DNA of 34,323 bases from Pirellula sp. (GTDB lineage: Bacteria; Planctomycetota; Planctomycetia; Pirellulales; Pirellulaceae): positions 1-34,323 of the forward strand of contig JAIPFP010000037.1 of assembly GCA_021736575.1 (NCBI GenBank), written 5' to 3'. Below the pieces are notes generated by a model. The model was not told where the DNA came from and did not search any database. It saw nothing but the letters and a program-made list of their open reading frames with translations. Every line of letters begins with the position of its first letter. The first letter of the stretch is position 1. Below, one piece after another: positions 11,473 through 21,628 of this stretch. The position numbers and the translations under genes are program-made.

Positions 11473-11568
11473 GTAGGACGGCCTTTCTAGGCCGTCGCTC
11501 TTCATTGCGCACTAACATCATTCTAGTCTCCTTGTGTTGATTTCGACGGCCTGGAAAGGCCGTCCTAC
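11473..11568. repeat. REPIN: inverted pair of REP family 1 hairpins, downstream flank of RAYT
   Basis: Forward copy 11473-11496 and inverted copy 11545-11568. Each is GTAG followed by a hairpin with GACGGCCT / AGGCCGTC arms and a 4-nt TTCC loop (TTCT in the forward copy). The GTAG heads face outward. The inverted copy is inside the C-terminal codons of the RAYT gene. Confidence 0.9.
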
Positions 11569-12267
11569 GGAGTGACTATCATGCTTCGCATCGCGGAAGC
11601 CCCAGTTTGCTTGTTCCCAGGCAGGGTGAATCCAACGGAACCAGACAGACTCTGGAAGACCTGCCTTTTGAGGATTCTTGCCGATGTACTGCACAACGCG
11701 GAAAAGATGTTCTTCATCGCGAATGATTCGATCATAACTTTCTTCCTGCCAAAGTACGCCGCTGCGCTGCATGGACTTGTTGACCGAGTGTCCGACGAAA
11801 CCTTTCCAGCTATCCAAGATCTGTTCCAATTGCCACGCGCCAAGCGGCTTCATAACGACGTGAACATGGTTCGGCATCACAACAAACGCATATGTAGAAC
11901 AGCGATCGTCTTGGAAAAAGAGCATCGCTTTCGACATAATGTCTGCATTCTTCGAATCGCCAAATACACATTCGCCATACCCTTCGTCCAGCCAGCCTTC
12001 GATACGAATGGTATGGCGTCTAGTGAAGTCCTGCCATTGAGCCTCCGTGCGGGGTTCGGGATGAGTACGCTCCCATTCAGCGCGCCAGCGTTGGAGTTCC
12101 GCCAGTTTATGCTGCGGAAGCGAGTCAGCTAGTCGAAACGTAACAAAGTACGTTGCACCATCCTGTCGCCAGTGTGGCAGGTGCCTCTTATACATCGTCA
12201 CGGGAATATCGGGATGGAGTCCACGAAAGCCAGGCGGCGCATCGAGGTTAAATGAATCGTTACTCAT
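11518..12267 (-). CDS. REP-associated tyrosine transposase (RAYT, Y1/HUH family)
   Basis: 249 residues from the ATG at 12267; the frame extends upstream through a REP but this Met precedes the conserved body. HUH motif: FVVMPNHVHVVMKP (His-Val-His). The catalytic Tyr is probably in RVVQYIGKNPQKAGL. The N-terminal YVTFR-like strand is present (YFVTFRLADSLP). The enzyme is expected to nick single-stranded DNA at GTAG-headed REP hairpins and mobilise them. It is flanked on both sides by inverted REP pairs (11473-11568, 12282-12350). The gene has no stop before the downstream REP, so its last residues (VGRPFQAVEINTRRLE) are REP-encoded. It looks intact and may be active. Confidence 0.9.
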   Translation of the reverse strand: MSNDSFNLDAPPGFRGLHPDIPVTMYKRHLPHWRQDGATYFVTFRLADSLPQHKLAELQRWRAEWERTHPEPRTEAQWQDFTRRHTIRIEGWLDEGYGECVFGDSKNADIMSKAMLFFQDDRCSTYAFVVMPNHVHVVMKPLGAWQLEQILDSWKGFVGHSVNKSMQRSGVLWQEESYDRIIRDEEHLFRVVQYIGKNPQKAGLPESVWFRWIHPAWEQANWGFRDAKHDSHSVGRPFQAVEINTRRLE

Positions 12268-12281
12268 CGTGTGTCCTTTTC

Positions 12282-12350
12282 GTAGGACGGCCTTTCCAGG
12301 CCGTCGTTCGCATTCACATCGTTTTCGACGGCCTGAAAAGGCCGTCCTAC
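12282..12350. repeat. REPIN: inverted pair of REP family 1 hairpins, upstream flank of RAYT
   Basis: Forward copy 12282-12305 and inverted copy 12327-12350, GTAG heads outward, 21-nt spacer. The first copy has the GACGGCCT-TTCC-AGGCCGTC hairpin; the second has one change in the loop-side arm (CCTGAAAAGG). It lies 14 nt upstream of the RAYT start, where REP hairpins commonly control RAYT expression (inference). Confidence 0.9.
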
Positions 12351-12535: not shown

Positions 12536-14242
12536 TTACTGTTTTATTGGCAGCACAATCCGAGATCCCTTCAACGACGAGTGATAGACAGACTCGGTCG
12601 AGATCAGTGTCCTGGCACCGAACGGGCCTTCGCCAGTATTGGAATTGCGATCGTACAGCGGGAACAGAGAACCGCAAATGTCGACTCGAAGTCGATGCCC
12701 TTTCGCAATCGTCGCGGCACAAGGACCGAGATCCACCGTGATCTCGTACACTTTGCCGGGTTGCAGAGGCGATGGTTTAAGCAACGAATCTCGATATCGG
12801 CCTCGAAGAATGCCGGTGGCAAGATTTTGAGCAAAACCGTCCGGTCGTACATCGACCAGCTTGACGGCCCAATCCGCATCCGGAGTGTCGGCGCTCACAA
12901 ACAGCTTCGCTTCGACATTGCCGGCAAAGCGGAGCGGCTCAGTCAACACATTGCCGGTATAGACAAGCACGTCGTCTCGGTCTTCGAGCGCACCCTGATC
13001 AACCGGTCCCCATACCGCAGCTTTCATCGGCCGCGTCCTCGTGACCGGGCAGGCAGGTACAGGATTCGCCGGATCCGCGCGAAACGTATCGGCGGGTTCT
13101 TCGCCAGCAGGTTCTTCGCGGTTCAACTTGCCGGTGCCGCTACGTGTGTTCGCTTTGCTGTCGGAGTGAAGGTAGAACGATGTCGCAGAGAAGCCTTCGG
13201 GCGGCCACGTCTGCGCGTCATGCCAAACGTTTTCCCCCATAGAAAAATATCGGACGGGCGGAAACGGCTTGGCGATTGCTGCGGGATCCTGTTTGAGATG
13301 GCGATCGAACCAGTCCATTTGAAGTGCTAAAGCATCCACTGCAGCATCAGAACCGAAATCAACTTCGGCGACTGTCGCCTTGCCAACGGTGCCGTGGTCC
13401 CACGGACCAAGGACCAGTCGTTGTGCCTTGCGAGTCTGCGGATCGCGAGCCTGCTGCATGATCATGAAGTTCCCGACGGACTCACGTGAGAAGTAGTCGT
13501 AATAGCCCACGACATGCAACGCGGGCATCTTCAAGTTGGGCAGTTCGTCTGTCAAATCTAGTCGCGTCCAAAATCCATTCGGTTCAGGATGAGTGAGGTA
13601 GGCATCCAGCCATGGCATTGGCCAGCCGATCGCCAAGTCGACATCGCTCAGCGGTAGACGCAGGAGCGCTTCATTCATGTCTGCCGGTTGTACACCTTTT
13701 GGCTTAGGAGTGTTGCCAGCCAGCCAGCCTGAAATCAACGACAACCGCACGGCCCCGCCCAGATACAGGTTGCGGTAGAAGCTGCTCCAGGTAGCAGTCG
13801 GCGTGATCGTGACCAGTTTGGGTGGATGCTCGACGGCTGCCTGCCATTGCGTCGCACCGACATACGAACTGCCCCACATCCCGATACGACCGTTGCACCA
13901 TGGTTGATTTCCGATCCACTCAATCGCATCGAATCCATCCTGACCTTCGTTGTTGTAGGGACTGAACACTCCTTCCGACGCAAATTTGCCGCGGCAATCC
14001 TGAACGACGGCAACATATCCCGCGGCCGCGAACCGTTCTGCGGCTCCCTTGGCGAGAACCTTGTTGTAAGGGGTTCGCATGAGCACGACCGGAGCAACGT
14101 TCGTCGTGTCGTCACGATAGATGTCCGTCGCTAGATTGACGCCGTCTCGCATCGAAACCATCACGGTTTCGACTCGAACGTCGGCGTGTGCCTCCAGCGG
14201 CGAGAACAGCAGGGCGGCAAGGAGTACGATGGCGTGTTTCAT
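12536..14242 (-). CDS. CocE/NonD family secreted serine hydrolase
   Basis: 568 residues with a signal peptide (MKHAIVLLAALLFSPLEAHA). The X-Pro dipeptidyl-peptidase/cocaine-esterase fold is evident: VMVSMRDGVNLATDIYRD, VVLMRTPYNK, VVQDCRGKFASEG, the nucleophile motif GMWGSSYVG (GxSYxG, Ser126) and the His loop LVLGPWDHGTVG; the C-terminal jelly-roll domain (RFAGNVEAKLFVSAD...HRLRVDICGS) is complete. Family members hydrolyse acyl esters, beta-lactam side chains or X-Pro peptides. It is the last gene of the minus-strand DUF1552 run; array 1 of the heptamers lies directly upstream, and its message leader would contain that repeat. Confidence 0.92.
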   Translation of the reverse strand: MKHAIVLLAALLFSPLEAHADVRVETVMVSMRDGVNLATDIYRDDTTNVAPVVLMRTPYNKVLAKGAAERFAAAGYVAVVQDCRGKFASEGVFSPYNNEGQDGFDAIEWIGNQPWCNGRIGMWGSSYVGATQWQAAVEHPPKLVTITPTATWSSFYRNLYLGGAVRLSLISGWLAGNTPKPKGVQPADMNEALLRLPLSDVDLAIGWPMPWLDAYLTHPEPNGFWTRLDLTDELPNLKMPALHVVGYYDYFSRESVGNFMIMQQARDPQTRKAQRLVLGPWDHGTVGKATVAEVDFGSDAAVDALALQMDWFDRHLKQDPAAIAKPFPPVRYFSMGENVWHDAQTWPPEGFSATSFYLHSDSKANTRSGTGKLNREEPAGEEPADTFRADPANPVPACPVTRTRPMKAAVWGPVDQGALEDRDDVLVYTGNVLTEPLRFAGNVEAKLFVSADTPDADWAVKLVDVRPDGFAQNLATGILRGRYRDSLLKPSPLQPGKVYEITVDLGPCAATIAKGHRLRVDICGSLFPLYDRNSNTGEGPFGARTLISTESVYHSSLKGSRIVLPIKQ

Positions 14243-14250
14243 GTTTTATT

Positions 14251-14398
14251 TCTTTGTTCTTTGTTCTTTGTTCTTGGTTCTTTGTGCTTTGTGCTTTGTG
14301 CTTTGTGCTTTGTGCTTGGTGCTTGGTGCTTGGTTTGGGATGCTCGTCGTCTTGCTGGGCCACGAAGAACTCAGAACGAGGAACCAAGAACGAAGAGG
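14251..14398. repeat. heptamer array 1: 12 forward units plus inverted arm
   Basis: Twelve units in strict 7-nt phase occupy 14251-14334: TCTTTGT x3, TCTTGGT, TCTTTGT, GCTTTGT x4, GCTTGGT x3. After a ~29-nt loop, five inverted units follow in the same period at 14364-14398 (GAAGAAC, TCAGAAC, GAGGAAC, CAAGAAC, GAAGAGG). Together they could fold into a long hairpin. It fills the spacer between the 431-residue protein gene and the CocE gene. Confidence 0.9.
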
Positions 14399-14400
14399 CA

Positions 14401-15696
14401 TCAGTATTTCGGGAAGATGGCCGGGGTCGGGAAGCGGTCTTCGTGGCTACCATCGCCCAGGAATTCCTCCCGAGGCACGTTGACCTTGGGCCAACTGGCG
14501 GGGCAGACACGGACGACTCTACCCGGACGGATGCCTTCGATGATGAGGTCCGTCTCAAAACGGATTTGAATGCCACTGCTCCCCAGAGGCACTTCGCCAG
14601 TCGACTTGATAACGTCGATGATGGGGCCTTTGGATGCCATGTGCGCTGGGCCATAATCCCCGCCCAGGTGCTTCAACGTGTTCTCGGATGCATTCATCGT
14701 GGCGGAGACATCTTTTTTGAAATCGGCGTAAAGCGTTTCGTCCATGCCACCGAACAAGGTTGCGGTCACGGTCGCGCGACCAAACTTGCCATACTCGACG
14801 GCGTCGATCCAGGCGGGCATCCAGCGGCTACGGATGAAGGCCTTGTGCACTGCGGTTTGATTGCGGGCGGCGCGTTGCATTGCGTGGTCGTCCAGCCAGA
14901 TGTCCGAGATGTGGAACCGGGTGAACACGCCATCCGGTGTGGGTTTCCAGGTGATACCAAGCAGGACGGCCTCGCCACTGAGGGGTTTTTTCCCTTCTGC
15001 GGGCCACGCGCCTTCGGCGATGAGTTCCTCAATGCTGAGGCTTTCGCGCCCTCGCCAGATTCGGGTGGCAGCATCGAAGGTCATCTTTTCCTCGGTCGAA
15101 TTGCCGTCTCCTCCTTGCTTTGGTTCGAGGCTGGCTACGATCGTACCCTGCAAATTCTTAAGGTCCACTTCTTTGAGCTTCCAGACCTTACCCTCGCGAA
15201 GGCATTGGCTGGGCTCGTCTTCTAGGAGCAGGACGTGGTTCTCGGCGGGGAAGATACCCGCTCCACGGTTGTGGTTCGCGTCTTTCGTCTTACTGTCTAT
15301 TGGCAATACCGGCACAGAGGATGTCTTCGGGTCCGGCGGGAGGAAGGCTCGGACATGCATCACAGTGCCGAGCGGGATGTCGCGCAGGTCCGCTGGTGCG
15401 CCGTGATAGCGGATGATGCCGTAGGGCAACATGGCGAAGGGATGGGGATCGTTTCGAAAAAACATCCCCGCTCCTTGCACGCGGACGCTGCCTCGGCGGT
15501 TGGCATGATCCACGAACACCAGTTCGCCTCGATAAGAGAGCGACTTTTCCAGCGGGGGAAACTTCCCCGACTCCGGCCGAAAGACTTCGGTTCCTGGTTC
15601 TGGGTTCTTCGTTCTTGGTCCCTCGCTAAAGACAGTCGCTTGAACAAGGAACGAGCAAACCAAGAACCAAGAACCAAGTACAAATAACTTCTTCAT
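14401..15696 (-). CDS. secreted protein of unknown function in the DUF1552/DUF1592 operon
   Basis: 431 residues; I do not recognise the family. The start at 15696 overlaps the end of the DUF1552 gene by 4 nt, implying coupling. Residues 1-20 ([20 protein letters not shown]) form a plausible signal peptide, but this and the next ~13 residues ([13 protein letters not shown]) are encoded by heptamer repeats (15590-15674). The mature part starts around [19 protein letters not shown] and shows a beta-rich pattern ([43 protein letters not shown]) suggestive of two small barrel-like domains, then a longer alpha/beta part with [13 protein letters not shown]. The context suggests a partner of the DUF1552/DUF1592 pair in the envelope. 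Confidence 0.75.
15590..15674. repeat. heptamer array 2, inside the 5' coding end of the 431-residue protein
   Basis: Forward units GTTCCTG, GTTCTGG, GTTCTTC, GTTCTTG, GTCCCTC (15590-15624), a 17-nt loop, and inverted units starting GAACAAG at 15642 and ending with two CAAGAAC-type units at 15664-15674, with one 1-nt phase slip. Same inverted-arm architecture as arrays 1 and 4, but translated. Confidence 0.85.
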
Positions 15697-17048
15697 AGTT
15701 CGATTGCCTTATTGCTATCGCCAAACGCGTCGGTCTCCACACCCATGCGTTGGGCCATCAGGAGCAGCAAGTTGCTCATGTGGGCGTCCGGGTTTGCGGG
15801 GCGACTGCAGAGCCCGTAGTGCTCACCGGGCTTGTCGAGCTGGTATCCGTTGAAGTGGCCCTGGTTGAAGTCGAGATGGCTGCCGTGCTTGAGGCCGAGA
15901 TCCGAACCGCCAGCGAGCACTAGCGGGAGATTGGCGTTACCGTGGCTGTGGCCGTAGGACATGCCGCTGCCGAAGAGTGCCATCGTGGAGCCCAAGAGCG
16001 GCTGGCCGTTGACGTCCTTCGTCTCCTCAAGTCGTGAGAGAAAGTAGCTGAACTGTTCGATGGCGAAGGTGTCGTAGATGGTGAGCTTCTCGATGTAGCC
16101 TGCGTCGCCGCCATGGTGACTGAGCTGATGCCGCGACTCCGTAATGCCGATCTCTGGAATGGCGAAGGCATCCCCCTCGCCTCCCAAACTGAACGTGGCC
16201 ACTCGCGTCACATCCGTCTGGAAGGCGAGCACCATGAGGTCATAGACGGTCCGGAAATAGTCGCCCGCCATCGTGGCGGCGATGTCGCGTCCGGTGCGTT
16301 TGCGGTCGGCTTCCGAGATGGCGGGCAGCGGCGTGTCGAGCCAGGCATCGGCCCGCCGCGTACGGATCTCCGCCTCACGGACCGAAGTGAGGTATTGGTC
16401 AAGGCGTCCTTTGTCCGCCGCTCCCATCTTCTGCTCAAGCCGACTCACTTCCGCGAGGTTGTCATCAAGAACGCTGGCTTTTCGGCGAAGCGCTCGCCGC
16501 TGGGCCGCTATGCCCCCTTTAGGTTCCTCGAACAGCGACGCGAAGATTTCACTGCAACGACGCAACGCGGGAAGTTGGACCCCATCCGAAGTCCACGCGA
16601 GGGAGCCCTGCGTAAGCGCGATCTCCATCGAGGGGTATCGCGTATGCTGCGCGGTGACTTGCGCCATCTTCTGATCTACGGAGATCGTATTGCGATCCGA
16701 AGGGCCGAGTTTTCCACCTGTCAGCCAGACCGAAATACAGTTGTGGTGATGGCTGATGGCTCCCGGATGATGCAGACCGCTGATCGGCGTGATGACCCGG
16801 CGGTGCTTTTCCAGAGGCTTGAGTGATCGGGAAAAGTCATATTCTTTACCCGGCTTGGTGATCTGATAGTTCAGCGAATGGACGCCGTTTGCGAGGTAGA
16901 TGAATGCACTGCGCCGAGGCGTGGCGGACTGTTGCTCGGCCGCTCTGAGCGGGATCATGCATTCCAGCATGGGAAGCGAGATGCAAGTCCCCAAAGCGCG
17001 CAGCGCGTGTCGGCGGTCGATCAACCAGGATTGGGAGAGGTAGTTCAT
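15693..17048 (-). CDS. DUF1552 family secreted protein
   Basis: 451 residues. N-terminal Tat-like leader: [21 protein letters not shown], followed by [35 protein letters not shown], the central helix [22 protein letters not shown] (a long charged helix; only its start is typical), [33 protein letters not shown] and [24 protein letters not shown]. These segments are the usual landmarks of DUF1552, a sulfatase-fold-like exported planctomycete/verrucomicrobial family normally next to a DUF1592 cytochrome protein, as here. The start codon lies inside heptamer array 3, whose AAGGA units give the only ribosome-site-like sequence. Confidence 0.92.
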
Positions 17049-17140
17049 GGTTCTTGGTTCCTTGTTCCTTGTTCTTAGTTCTTAGTTCTTAGTTCATGGT
17101 TCATGGTTCATGGTTCATGGTTCTTGGTTCTTGGTTCTTG
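17043..17140. repeat. heptamer array 3: 14 forward units in perfect 7-nt phase
   Basis: Units from 17043: GTTCATG, GTTCTTG, GTTCCTT x2, GTTCTTA x3, GTTCATG x4, GTTCTTG x3, then a decayed GTTGAGG. Variant units are grouped in runs, the signature of local unit duplication. The array contains the start codon of the DUF1552 gene at its left end and the last codons and stop of the four-helix-bundle gene at its right end. There is no inverted arm beside it. Confidence 0.93.
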
Positions 17141-17506
17141 GTTGAGGGTATTCAATAGGTAGCGAATAAAGCCGCCTACTTTGGCGTGTGTCTTCGCCAC
17201 TTGTTCGTATATGGAGTCGAACTCATCCTGCGAGATGTAGCCCTGATCTAAAGCGACATAGAGTTGACTTTGAACCTCAGTGCATGAACGCTGCGAGTAG
17301 CGTAGAAACTTGACGAACTCAGCATTGCTCCCTCCGTCGAATCCTTCAGCGATGTTGTGCATGGTCGAGCCGGACGCACGGGTAATCTGGTCCCGTAGTC
17401 CGAAGTCTTTCGCAAACCCTCCTCGCATCGCCACTGCATAGACTCGCTTCGTTAGCTCCCGCGCCAACTGCCAGCCTTCTATGTCTTCAAAGCGTCGGAT
17501 AGGCAT
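17108..17506 (-). CDS. four-helix-bundle protein (S23 rRNA intervening-sequence protein family)
   Basis: 132 residues, slightly longer than the usual ~120. Family landmarks: FEDIEGWQLARELTKRVY (helix 1), GLRDQITRASGSTMHNIAEG (helix 2), SNAEFVKFLRYSQRSCTEVQ (helix 3), LYVALDQGYISQDEFDSIYE and a final helix ending GGFIRYLL. Relatives are encoded in 23S rRNA intervening sequences, and the accessory protein Avd of diversity-generating retroelements has the same fold; they bind nucleic acid and form pentamers. The C-terminal tail NQEPRTKNHEP is encoded by heptamer array 3, and array 4 begins just before the start codon. The gene interrupts the DUF1592-DUF1552 operon, on the same strand, so it seems to be an insertion. 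Confidence 0.93.
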   Translation of the reverse strand: MPIRRFEDIEGWQLARELTKRVYAVAMRGGFAKDFGLRDQITRASGSTMHNIAEGFDGGSNAEFVKFLRYSQRSCTEVQSQLYVALDQGYISQDEFDSIYEQVAKTHAKVGGFIRYLLNTLNQEPRTKNHEP

Positions 17507-17511
17507 TGTTC

Positions 17512-17647
17512 GTTCTTAGTTCTTAGTTCTTAGTTCTTAGTTCTTGGTTCTTGGTTCTTGGTTCTTGGTTCTTGGTTCTTGGTTCTTGGTGCTCGGTTGC
17601 TGGTCGTCCGGTGAACAAAGAACTAAGAACAAAGAACCATGAACTAG
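17512..17647. repeat. heptamer array 4: 11 perfect forward units plus inverted arm
   Basis: GTTCTTA x4 then GTTCTTG x7 (17512-17588), two decayed units (GTGCTCG, GTTGCTG) to 17602, a ~10-nt loop, and five inverted units in phase (GAACAAA, GAACTAA, GAACAAA, GAACCAT, GAACTAG; 17613-17647). It fills the spacer between the DUF1592 stop and the four-helix-bundle gene start and could form a hairpin of roughly 35 bp. Confidence 0.93.
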
Positions 17648-17658
17648 CGCTAGCGCTA
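17645..17658. repeat. perfect palindrome at the DUF1592 stop codon
   Basis: TAGCGCTAGCGCTA is its own reverse complement and continues as a third, altered hexamer TAACGC. It contains the DUF1592 stop (17656-17658) and adjoins the inverted arm of heptamer array 4; it might be a junction or a small cruciform. Confidence 0.6.
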
Positions 17659-20118
17659 ACGCTTCCTCATCAGCTCCGACGAAGCCACCGCACGCACGAT
17701 GTCCTTGACTCGGTAATCGTTCTTCTTCGCGACTTCTTCAATCAACTTGATGCTATCCGAGTCATCCACGGTCAGCACGCGGCGGAGGGAGTAGGTGCAG
17801 AGTTGTTCAATGAAAGCTCTCGCGATCTTGTCGCGGTCCTCAAGCAGGAGTTGTTTGAATTGGACGGAATGGGTGAACGGACGGCCGTCGGGCATCACGC
17901 CGGAAGCATCCACCAATGGATCCTCACCCACTCCCGTTGGAACCTGCTCGCGAGTGCGCCACTGGCCGATGGCATCGTACTGGTCAAACGCCAGTCCCAG
18001 CGGATCGATGTTGCGATGGCAAGCGGCACAACTCGCGTTCTTGGCGTGCGCTTCAATTCTCTTGCGGATCGTGACCTTGGTTCCTGTAGGCGGAATGGGC
18101 TCAATCGGATCCACATTGGCCGGTGGCGAAGGCGGGGTCTTGTTGAAGATCGCTTCGCTGAGCCAGACGCCACGGTGCACCGGGCGGTGGCGCGTTCCGT
18201 CCGAGGTCAACCCGAGCACCGCGCCCATCGTGAGCAGACCGCCGCGATGGTCCTCGGGCTTGAGCGAGACTCGCTGGAAGCCGTCGGTCTTCAGCTCCGG
18301 CAGTCCATAGAAATCACAGAGCCGAGCGTTGGCCATGGTCCATTCGGAATCGAGGAAGCCGTCGATGGGCAAATTTTTCGCGAACATCTCGCGGAAATAC
18401 TCGACCGGCTCGGCTCGCATGCTCGTCTCTAGCCAGTCGTCGTAGCCAGGGTACAGCTTCTTGTCTGGCGGGAACATGCCCACGCGATGTAGTTGCAGCC
18501 ACTGCCGCGTAAAGTCATCGATGAAGCGATTGGTCCGGCTGTCTTTCAACATTCGGTCTACTTCATTCTTCAGACCCTCGCCATTGAGCTTCCCACTTTG
18601 GGCGGCGGTGAAGAGGTCGTCGTCGGGCATCGAACTCCATAGGAAGTACGAGAGCCGCGAGCCGAGTTCCCAGTCCGTGAGTCGTTCGCGAGCCACTGGA
18701 TCGCCCTCGACGAGATAGATGAAGTTTCTGGACGTCAGCACACCCTGCATCGCGATCCGATAAGCATTGGCCATCTTTTCGCCCGCCTCGCGTTCGTCGC
18801 GGTAGGATTGCAGATAGTCCTCCAACTCACCCTTCTCCACCGGTCGTCGCCAAGCGCGATGGGCCAAGCGATTCAAATGCTCCCCCACCACTTCGGGAGT
18901 TGCGTCGTCGGGTGGCAGCACACCGACGCGCCGGGATTTTTCCTCCTCCGTGACCAGCGGCCCCTCCCACTCGATCCAATCGAGGAGCACCGTCGAGAAG
19001 ATGCCATTCCCGTTGCCGTCGAACATCTGTGGGGCGTTCGGGTTTAGGAGAGAGCTCTCGCTGCTGTGTGTAAAAATATACGACCTCCCAGAGAGCGCAT
19101 TGCGGAAGGCTGCGCCGCCTCGCCTGTCCACAGCGTCAGTAGCCACCACGCAGAGATGCAGCGACGCAGGCATCTCAAGAAACACCTCGAACTCATAAAC
19201 CTGCGGACTGTCCTCCTCGGCCGTGATGTCGAATTCGATGAGTCCATCCACGGTCTCCTCACTGGTCTCCTTGCCGATGCTCAGGTGTGCTGGCTGACCA
19301 CCAGGCGGACGGATTCCACTGGCCTGGAGTCGCATGCGATACAGCCCGCTGTGTTCCGGACCTGTATTTCCAAACCAGTTGGACGAGAGCGCGTTCTGGA
19401 CTCGACCGGGAAAGAGCAGGTAACGCAGAGGCCGCTTGATGCCGAACCGGTCCAACGCCACCTGCTGGTCCTTCCCGCCGCCGTAACGCAACTCCGCTGC
19501 AGTCTTGCGGATTTTGCGAGCCTCACCGGACGTTGTGGGGAAAGCGCGGTCGACCACGATGTCCGCAGCGCGGTAATAGCGGTCCACATGTGACGGCGAG
19601 AGCGAAAGCTGCGAGCCGATGCGTTCAAACCCGTGCCATAACGTGTCTTCGTTTAGCTCGCCCGGTTTGGCCGGATCGTAGCGCACGCCGAGCAGGTCAT
19701 AGACCGTGTTCTGATATTCCTTGCGACTGAGCCGATAGTGCGACACCGCCGGCCGCGCCGCCATCCGTGCCGCTCGGCCATCCTTGAGCAGTGCGTCAAG
19801 ACTCACCACGAACGTTGCAATCTCGTCCAGAGTCGGTTGCGGCTCTTTCTTCGGAGGCATCTCGCCGCTGTTGATCTTATCGAGCGCCTCCGCCCAGTGG
19901 TGCGTGTCTACGCCCGCCTTGAAATCGCGCGACAGCCGGTCGATCCGGATGTCTCCCTCTTGCTTCTGCGGGCCATGACAGCGGACGCAGTGCTTGTCCA
20001 GAAACGCTTCAAACCGTTCCGCTCCAGAGACGGCACCGACGAGGCTGAAGATACCGCTGAGGACGAGGCTCGCACGTAACAATTCTCGAATAGGGAACTT
20101 GGTCGTTGCCAGTGTCAT
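17656..20118 (-). CDS. DUF1592 domain-containing cytochrome-type protein (DUF1587/1595/1592/1588/1585)
   Basis: 820 residues with signal peptide ([20 protein letters not shown]). A c-type haem site C44-V-R-C-H48 in the N-terminal cytochrome-like domain precedes the run of planctomycete domains: [18 protein letters not shown] (DUF1587), [18 protein letters not shown] (DUF1595), [20 protein letters not shown] (DUF1592), a second CxxCH in the DUF1588 part ([18 protein letters not shown]), and a C-terminal DUF1585 segment ([18 protein letters not shown]). AAGGAG lies 11 nt before the ATG. Its start overlaps the stop of the DUF1501 gene by one base (TAATG). Expected periplasmic; proposed role in oxidative attack on polymers is inference from context in the literature of the phylum. 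Confidence 0.93.
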
Positions 20119-21518: not shown

Positions 21519-21535
21519 GGTGGGACAATACTTTC

Positions 21536-21594
21536 GTAGGACGGCCTTTCCAGGCCGTCTGTAAAATCGAGACGGCCTGGAAAGGCCGTCCTAC
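21536..21594. repeat. REPIN: inverted pair of REP family 1 hairpins between two operon genes
   Basis: Forward copy 21536-21559 and inverted copy 21571-21594 (11-nt spacer), both with the perfect GTAG + GACGGCCT-TTCC-AGGCCGTC structure found around the RAYT gene 9 kb away. It lies in the 110-nt spacer between the PSCyt1 and DUF1501 genes, where it may stabilise or attenuate the operon message. Confidence 0.93.
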
Positions 21595-21628
21595 AAATGT
21601 GGACGCTAATTCAAAACAATTGCCTTGC

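Follow-up and report, generated by a model that had tools for sequence, protein, structure and literature searches.

The four-helix-bundle gene and its heptamer repeats

The stretch analyzed here, called the window throughout, comprises nucleotides (nt) 1-34,323 of contig JAIPFP010000037.1 (C352 in our numbering) of Pirellula sp. assembly GCA_021736575.1, and the subject of the analysis is a small gene for a four-helix-bundle (4HB) protein that stands among heptamer repeats at a junction of two larger genes. The 4HB gene is located on the minus strand at 17108-17506 and encodes 132 amino acids. Its product belongs to the S23/IVP family of 23S rRNA intervening sequences (IVSs), with matches to PF05635 (23S_rRNA_IVP, E = 1.4e-29) and TIGR02436 (E = 2.1e-28), and PF05635 was the only match in a Pfam scan of the gene. 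The upstream neighbor is a DUF1592 gene (17656-20118) and the downstream neighbor a DUF1552 gene (15693-17048), both identified by Pfam and both on the minus strand, where DUF1501 and PSCyt genes are also found in the surroundings.

On the sense strand of the 4HB gene, the upstream arm (17613-17651) consists of GTTCTTR-like heptamers, in which AG, GG or TG is followed by TTCTT, and was recognized by its pairing with 17036-17074 and by RNA folding. The downstream arm (17036-17143), which we named array 3, consists of CAAGAAC-like heptamers, encodes the final residues of the 4HB protein and reaches the ATG of the DUF1552 gene. A further array of the downstream type, array 4 (17512-17598), nevertheless lies upstream of the gene. 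Arrays 3 and 4 were found by Tandem Repeats Finder (TRF) and by an inverted-repeat scan; TRF detected 14.4 copies of period 7 at 17043-17143, overlapping the last codons of the 4HB gene, and 12.4 copies at 17512-17598. The units of both long arrays are GTTCTTR-like on the plus strand, and heptamers of the inverse sense occupy 17612-17644. The original prediction, made from the DNA sequence, had described an S23/IVP gene amid heptamer arrays of the same orientation on both sides, and the profile matches, the TRF arrays and their plus-strand units confirm this description.

Besides these direct arrays, the window contains an inverted pair, because 17613-17651 is complementary to 17036-17074 across the gene (39 nt, 85%) and the predicted RNA fold of the whole unit forms a long stem around the gene (z = -3.66, none of 20 shuffled sequences being equally stable). 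Array 4 can also pair with 17613-17647 to form a local hairpin (fold of 17508-17651, z = -6.36). The dN/dS values of the gene, 0.24 against genome G015 and 0.21 against G023, indicate that it is under purifying selection. None of three proteins matched a PADLOC defence model, and the idea of a defence system was dropped.

Complementary arms and the AG heptamer in related loci

In order to compare the flanks of related genes, we assembled a phylum set of 107 distinct 4HB genes from the relatives and the phylum (deduplicated by protein stretch; 102 with both flanks), in which the window copy is represented by its orthologue L063; a named set of 79 loci from many phyla, found by similarity to one 4HB protein, with 4HB matches in 78 and 85 genes with both flanks; and a plasmid set of 11 records, all cyanobacterial, taken from 30 plasmid records with a 4HB gene. 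The 4HB sets were ranked by match quality and are not random samples. The 130 nt before the start codon were compared with 130 nt spanning and following the stop codon, and a complementarity score of at least 24 was counted as a pair of arms. As controls, the upstream flank of one gene was compared with the downstream flank of another (mispaired flanks), and open reading frames (ORFs) called by a greedy script were analyzed in the same way.

Complementary flanks were observed in 80 of the 102 genes of the phylum set (mispaired, 9/300), in 59 of the 85 genes of the named set (mispaired, 40/416; control ORFs, 8/338) and in nine of the 11 plasmid genes (mispaired, 14/110), so that the pairing of the arms is specific to each locus. 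Among control ORFs from the phylum-set loci the count was 10/165, some of them Y1/IS transposase genes or genes with arrays of their own, and among size-matched control ORFs from both sets it was 3/190. The excess of arrays at such genes elsewhere, whose absence the original prediction had named beforehand as a refutation, is therefore strong. Its proposal that the gene had been inserted into one array of uniform orientation was not upheld, since the usual form is a pair of inverted arms; direct flank repeats (score of at least 28) were found in 12/102 phylum-set genes, orthologues of the window copy included, and in the plasmid locus L276. Two orthologues of the window copy (L062 and L064) have arm scores of 15 and 21 and fall below the threshold because the distal arm lies at or past the edge of the 130-nt window.

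With respect to gene order, 55 of the 107 phylum-set genes are codirectional with both neighbors and 12 are opposite to both. On plasmids, two loci, L271 (Anabaena sp. 90) and L276, have the 4HB gene between cas6 and cas4, and in a third (L277) its neighbors are cas10 and a Cmr3-family gene. The plasmid set also includes L279, from plasmid C of Trichormus variabilis ATCC 29413. The L276 locus, from a Pseudanabaena galeata plasmid, carries direct AAAGCTA and AAAAGCC arrays on either side of its 4HB gene, an arrangement like that of the window.

The arms have a period of seven. Their mean self-match at this period was 0.68 in the phylum set (76 arms) and 0.75 in the named set (58 arms), compared with 0.24-0.36 at other periods up to 12. 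A self-match of 0.5 or more at period 7 was reached by 119 of the 134 arms that are 16 nt or longer; ten fitted 8 better and one fitted 9 better, although these classes overlap. Off period 7, an array scan over periods 4-15 gave values near zero, the exceptions being period 14 and a small number of arrays with periods of 8, 9, 13 and 15, and other arm periods were dropped. The upstream arm is richer in G than in C (68/76 and 53/58 in the two sets), and in the phylum set the arms lie a median of 32 nt before the start codon and 7.5 nt after the stop codon.

The consensus of the heptamer is specific to the locus, as 102 consensuses were obtained from 119 arms. Nor does a genome seem to have a single motif, since by eye the units within G044 differ. 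A common element is nevertheless observed directly: AG occurred in phase in 85 of the 119 arms, compared with 39.4 ± 3.7 when the seven unit columns were permuted, and GT, TT and CA exceeded the permuted expectation by less. The shared unit can be written as A, G, T/G, G/T, G/T, T, Y (2.81 bits of information vs 1.70 ± 0.04 in 30 shuffles), that is, AG and five further nucleotides, and the AGTTCTT and GGTTCTT heptamers of the window are consistent with it. In the arms the AG strand precedes the gene and the CT strand follows it. The longest in-phase run of AG with one miss allowed had its mode at five (44/129); after clustering of the proteins at 60% identity, runs of five were found in 19 of 67 cases, runs of four in seven and runs of six in six. 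With no misses allowed, five was reached in 17/76 and six in three, and none of five control dinucleotides had its mode at five.

Very long heptamer arrays, of about 200 nt or more, were observed beside the 4HB genes of L099 and L130 (TAGGGAA and CCCACTG). In L128 and L115, arrays of a single motif occupy several junctions between genes that appear by eye to be of the sugar-nucleotide or polysaccharide type.

Filled and empty sites

The sites at which these units stand are polymorphic, as can be observed at the DUF1592/DUF1552 junction of congeneric genomes. Besides the window, the genus contains 14 full-length relatives of the DUF1552 protein (84-98% identity) and two partial ones (83%; G024:C114 and G000:C3), and the junction was inspected in 15 loci, namely that of the window and those of the 14 full-length relatives. 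The 4HB gene of the window's kind (type A), with GTTCTTR arrays, is present in G000, G015, G023 and G022. In G005 and G018 the junction holds a type B gene with inverse AATGGGT-like and ACTCATT-like arms; type B is truncated or decayed in G019 and G007, and in G010 the contig stops within the gene. A type C gene with short inverse arms (GTTAGCN/CTAACNG) occupies the junction in G024, in two copies, one of which (L036) has an arm score of just 16, and in G009. In the second G009 copy (L073), palindromes accompany a gene for a Y1 transposase, after which come CACTACT and CGAACCA heptamers; G021 contains heptamers but no gene, and in G017 the DUF1592 and DUF1552 genes lie about 52 nt apart with neither gene nor array between them. 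The three 4HB types are only 19-34% identical to each other, while the DUF1552 proteins of the same junction are 84-98% identical. As the original prediction had stated, the 4HB gene thus splits a DUF1592-DUF1552 pair. In a tree of the 15 DUF1552 proteins, the empty G017 groups with the five type B genomes (98/98); G022, G024a, G009b and G021 are left unplaced, and because the tree is partly unresolved, gains and losses at the junction cannot be counted.

Related units are also found inside protein genes. Of 179 units, 31 lie within a long sense ORF that stays open across the first arm, the 4HB gene and the second arm, and the position of the host frame relative to the 4HB frame is identical in every one of them. 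Synonymous shuffling of the 4HB codons gave an expectation of 2.94 stops in the host frame and of 1.65 open units among the 31; since openness itself defines this in-gene set, the useful figure is the shuffle expectation. In the other 157 units the host-type frame was open in eight, compared with 1.05 expected, so the in-gene set may be incomplete. The single antisense case within an ORF (L103) carries no evidence of a host gene. A Pfam scan of 24 of the 31 host ORFs matched 20 of them to DNA methyltransferase families (N6_N4_Mtase, Eco57I, MmeI and N6_Mtase), and the four without a match are shorter (418-578 codons). Among 12 host translations that were inspected, six have the unit at one site of a type III Mod protein and one (L138) at a second Mod site; the rest are at MmeI-like sites (L168, from Stieleria tagensis, at one, L165 and L041 at another) or belong to L171 and L140. 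Other units with AGTGG arms have a flank in common with the first Mod site.

A search with the segment just upstream of the insertion in the first Mod site recovered 25 loci in 23 of 392 genomes, of which 24 could be aligned across the site. The region between QPDV and the strand before GFDYY measures 30-48 nt in 12 loci (L267 and L253 representing a single gene). In three loci (L245, L246 and L247) it is filled by a different in-frame sequence of 84 nt, and in five loci of one genome group (L257-L261) by 117 nt that encode a charged stretch. Three loci carry units of 465, 441 and 441 nt, open and multiples of three, and in L263 the region is 434 nt long and the frame is shifted. These empty, short, otherwise filled and unit-bearing alleles indicate that the unit was inserted in frame, at a position where other inserts are tolerated as well. 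By eye, the 84-nt inserts of L245 and L246 are partly palindromic. Together with the empty G017 junction and the differently filled junctions, the empty Mod alleles support the idea of the original prediction that repeats and protein insert as one unit. Substitutions by codon position were 0.213/0.244/0.544 in 66 embedded pairs and 0.287/0.158/0.555 in 30 others, a hint of constraint on the host frame to which we give no weight because the pairs are not independent. One family, with AGTGGTTAGTG arms and conserved flanks, was considered as true 23S IVSs and rejected: neither Rfam nor BLAST detected rRNA in it, and its flanks belong to a gene for a methyltransferase.

Heptamer hairpins also occur at a distance from 4HB genes. 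A scan of 179 loci (1.34 Mb) located 36 of them, distributed over 27 loci. In the 28 cases with a local 4HB arm, their resemblance to this arm (24.6) exceeded that to the arms from different loci (10.7). In L189, L210, L214, L222 and L137, such a hairpin was seen by eye in the same host gene, about 300 nt before the unit.

A probable mobile stem-loop gene and its alternatives

We consider it probable, at roughly 0.7, that the window and its relatives carry a mobile stem-loop gene, in which an S23/IVP-type 4HB ORF forms the loop and the arms are made of some four to five heptamers with AG and five further nucleotides, and which is an element of the IVS kind located outside rRNA. That the unit is a discrete mobile element is the firmest part of this reading and is very probable, and the units seem to represent a kind of selfish genetic element that has so far escaped notice. 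The concept of a repeat-plus-protein unit in the original prediction is therefore retained as far as an inserting unit is concerned, whereas the single direct array is not, and no evidence was found for the array-maintaining role that it had also suggested.

The closest known counterpart is the IVS of Coxiella 23S rRNA, for which an S23p ORF between inverted repeats, a 28-bp stem, cleavage by RNase III in vitro and a sporadic distribution have been described. Just ahead of the S23p ATG it carries GACAGAT heptamers, two or three in tandem plus one that is degenerate; the authors call the function and origin of the IVS unclear and hold that S23p is not produced in vivo there (PMC4990558). The window copy and its relatives share with it the S23/PF05635 gene, the complementary termini that form a stem and the sporadic distribution, and the published GACAGAT contains AG and fits the unit deduced here. 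They differ in standing outside rRNA, in operon junctions and in protein genes with a second frame kept open. Rfam gave no match in the window and, in 17 loci, just one tRNA and a T-box (in L227), and BLAST with the E. coli 23S and 16S sequences gave no match in the unit loci that it covered, in a run that contained no positive-control locus; the location in a 23S helix that characterizes IVSs is thus not shared, the units not being in rRNA. In-frame insertion into host ORFs recalls the Rickettsia palindromic elements, which are about 150 bp long, inserted in frame in protein genes and coding for a peptide fused with the host gene (PMC10969869); this likeness holds for the related in-gene units and not for the window copy, and the present units differ in their heptamer arms and in the 4HB gene in another frame. 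The Avd protein of diversity-generating retroelements is a further homologue (phrog_3206, E = 2.8e-11 for L037 and 9.4e-10 for L199); the window protein itself had no match in PHROG, and the window unit differs from such retroelements in having no reverse transcriptase beside it.

The unit behaves as a discrete insert, mostly on the sense strand, that is found at operon junctions and also, where its second frame has no stops, in frame within protein genes. The window copy would represent one insertion at the DUF1592/DUF1552 junction, with the arrays grown afterwards. As a mechanism, we propose that the 4HB protein, presumed pentameric from the five chains in each of its PDB relatives 2gsc and 2rld and from the title of Lin 2006, would bind its own transcript or single strand, each subunit holding one AG heptad. 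It would then deliver the stem-loop to a trans-acting enzyme, a reverse transcriptase or an HUH transposase, by which the unit would be copied to new sites. Binding of the protein to its own arms is conceivable at somewhat less than even odds, and an RNA intermediate in the movement is rather unlikely. The binding model is by analogy with the trp RNA-binding attenuation protein (TRAP), a ring of 11 subunits that reads regularly spaced AG-containing repeats in a leader, from which the proposed 4HB ring would differ in fold, in the number of subunits and in its longer pitch.

A wider formulation, to which we attach tentative credence, is that mobile stem-loop genes of this kind occur throughout bacteria, with a pentameric 4HB protein that reads its own RNA as five AG heptads. 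They would persist in transcribed DNA, restriction-modification genes included, because a second frame kept open would let translation of the host gene pass through the insert, the 4HB product being made from an internal start. If only the pitch and the AG were fixed, each locus would drift to its own motif; the 23S IVSs would be one branch, and the orphan heptamer hairpins found in cyanobacteria, Geobacter and Xanthomonas would be non-autonomous relics. Heptamers in print comprise GGGAATC in Xanthomonas and GGGGA(C/T)T in Nostoc, two xanthomonads having 70 and 75 inverted pairs at close distance (PMC4692102); 49 elements, each of four heptamers, inside genes and in the spaces between them in Geobacter metallireducens, with five heptamers at 15 of 16 sites (PMC2700814); and TAACTGA sets in Beggiatoaceae that are direct repeats with one exception (PMC4679880). 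These arrays are like those analyzed here, but in the consulted parts of those papers no link to a 4HB gene was found. Likewise, none of the papers listed in a literature search, whose coverage excludes most subscription journals, describes such arms beside a 4HB gene that lies outside rRNA.

Several observations weigh against a mobile stem-loop gene. Mobility is deduced from polymorphic sites, movement itself being unseen, and no enzyme can be tied to the unit: the two reverse transcriptase (RVT_1) matches of the window's genome are on contigs C347 and C180, with none on C352, and neither these nor the Y1 transposase gene of the window is linked to the unit by evidence. When empty and filled alleles of the junction and the Mod site were compared by eye, the borders were repetitive and no target-site duplication could be defined. 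The 31 in-gene units amount to about six sites and not to 31 events, since units share host sites and flanks, and most are at one Mod site. Arms at the threshold are missing from 22/102 and 26/85 4HB genes, and from L001, L004 and L005, three of the five genes that match PF05635 in the window's genome. The direct arrays of the window copy do not obey the inverted-arm rule, two of the nine plasmid arms are closer to period 8 than to 7 (L277 and L280), and in L270 and L275 the 4HB gene opposes both neighbors. The run on the CT strand has its mode at five but is broad (13, 13, 16 and 15 at three to six), and the link to rRNA IVSs has three supports, namely the protein family, the stem and a single description in print.

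It could be argued, in analogy to TRAP, that the unit does not move at all and is an inherited autoregulatory device, in which a 4HB ring would bind the AG heptads in its own leader and the downstream arm would serve as the competing strand. The position of the arms close to the start and stop codons, the AG every 7 nt with its mode of five and the purifying selection on the window protein agree with this, but it would not explain why a single junction can hold unlike 4HB types or a transposase or stand empty, nor would it explain insertion within methyltransferase genes and hairpins of the same unit without an ORF; we regard it as improbable, and note that the two ideas are compatible if the binding serves the element. 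Slightly less probable still is that the arrays came first, slippage and template switching at palindromes having built hairpins between which homologous recombination shuttles 4HB genes. Arrays and genes do occur apart, so that the independence which the original prediction had set against itself is found in part: arrays or hairpins stand without a 4HB gene in G021, in the window's genome and in the ORF-less hairpins, and genes stand without arms in L001, L004 and L005. CAAGAAC-like heptamers are also found in the DUF1552 start region of the type B genomes L070 and L071, and slippage as a source of heptamers is a hypothesis quoted in PMC4692102. Arrays that arose independently would not explain why size-matched ORFs are so seldom armed, or why the arms adjoin this one gene family across many phyla with differing motifs, and slippage alone leaves the AG constraint unaccounted for.

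Repetitive extragenic palindromes (REPs) are accompanied by a cognate small gene, the REP-associated tyrosine transposase (RAYT), which is a Y1 transposase. The hairpins might accordingly be REP-like substrates of an HUH enzyme, with the 4HB gene as cargo, which is the least probable of the three alternatives. In its favor, a Y1 gene with palindromic arms fills the same junction in G009 beside heptamer arrays, and the window contains a Y1 gene (11518-12267, RAYT-like by eye) flanked by GTAGGACGGCC palindromes at 11473-11568 and 12282-12350. The Y1 palindromes, however, differ in sequence from the heptamer arms and contain no heptamers by eye, and the unit itself encodes a PF05635 protein and no Y1 transposase, between arms of 7-nt period.

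A mobile stem-loop gene of the kind favored here would give a biology to the many proteins annotated as "four helix bundle protein". It could also account for heptamer repeats that stand as orphans, and would be a case of a selfish gene surviving inside a host gene by dual coding. Moreover, a free-standing relative with a readable arm pattern in many phyla makes the question of IVS function testable.

Further repeats of the window include another copy of the GTAGGACGGCC palindrome at 21530-21600 and two minus-strand heptamer hairpins without a 4HB gene. One hairpin (14265-14396) lies between the ORFs 12536-14242 and 14401-15696 (fold z = -2.65, 2 of 200 shuffled sequences being equally stable). 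The other (15590-15688, z = -5.46) lies in the N-terminal coding part of the minus-strand ORF 14401-15696, whose signal-peptide-like start is mostly encoded by its heptamers, and the leader of this ORF may have been supplied by the inserted hairpin.

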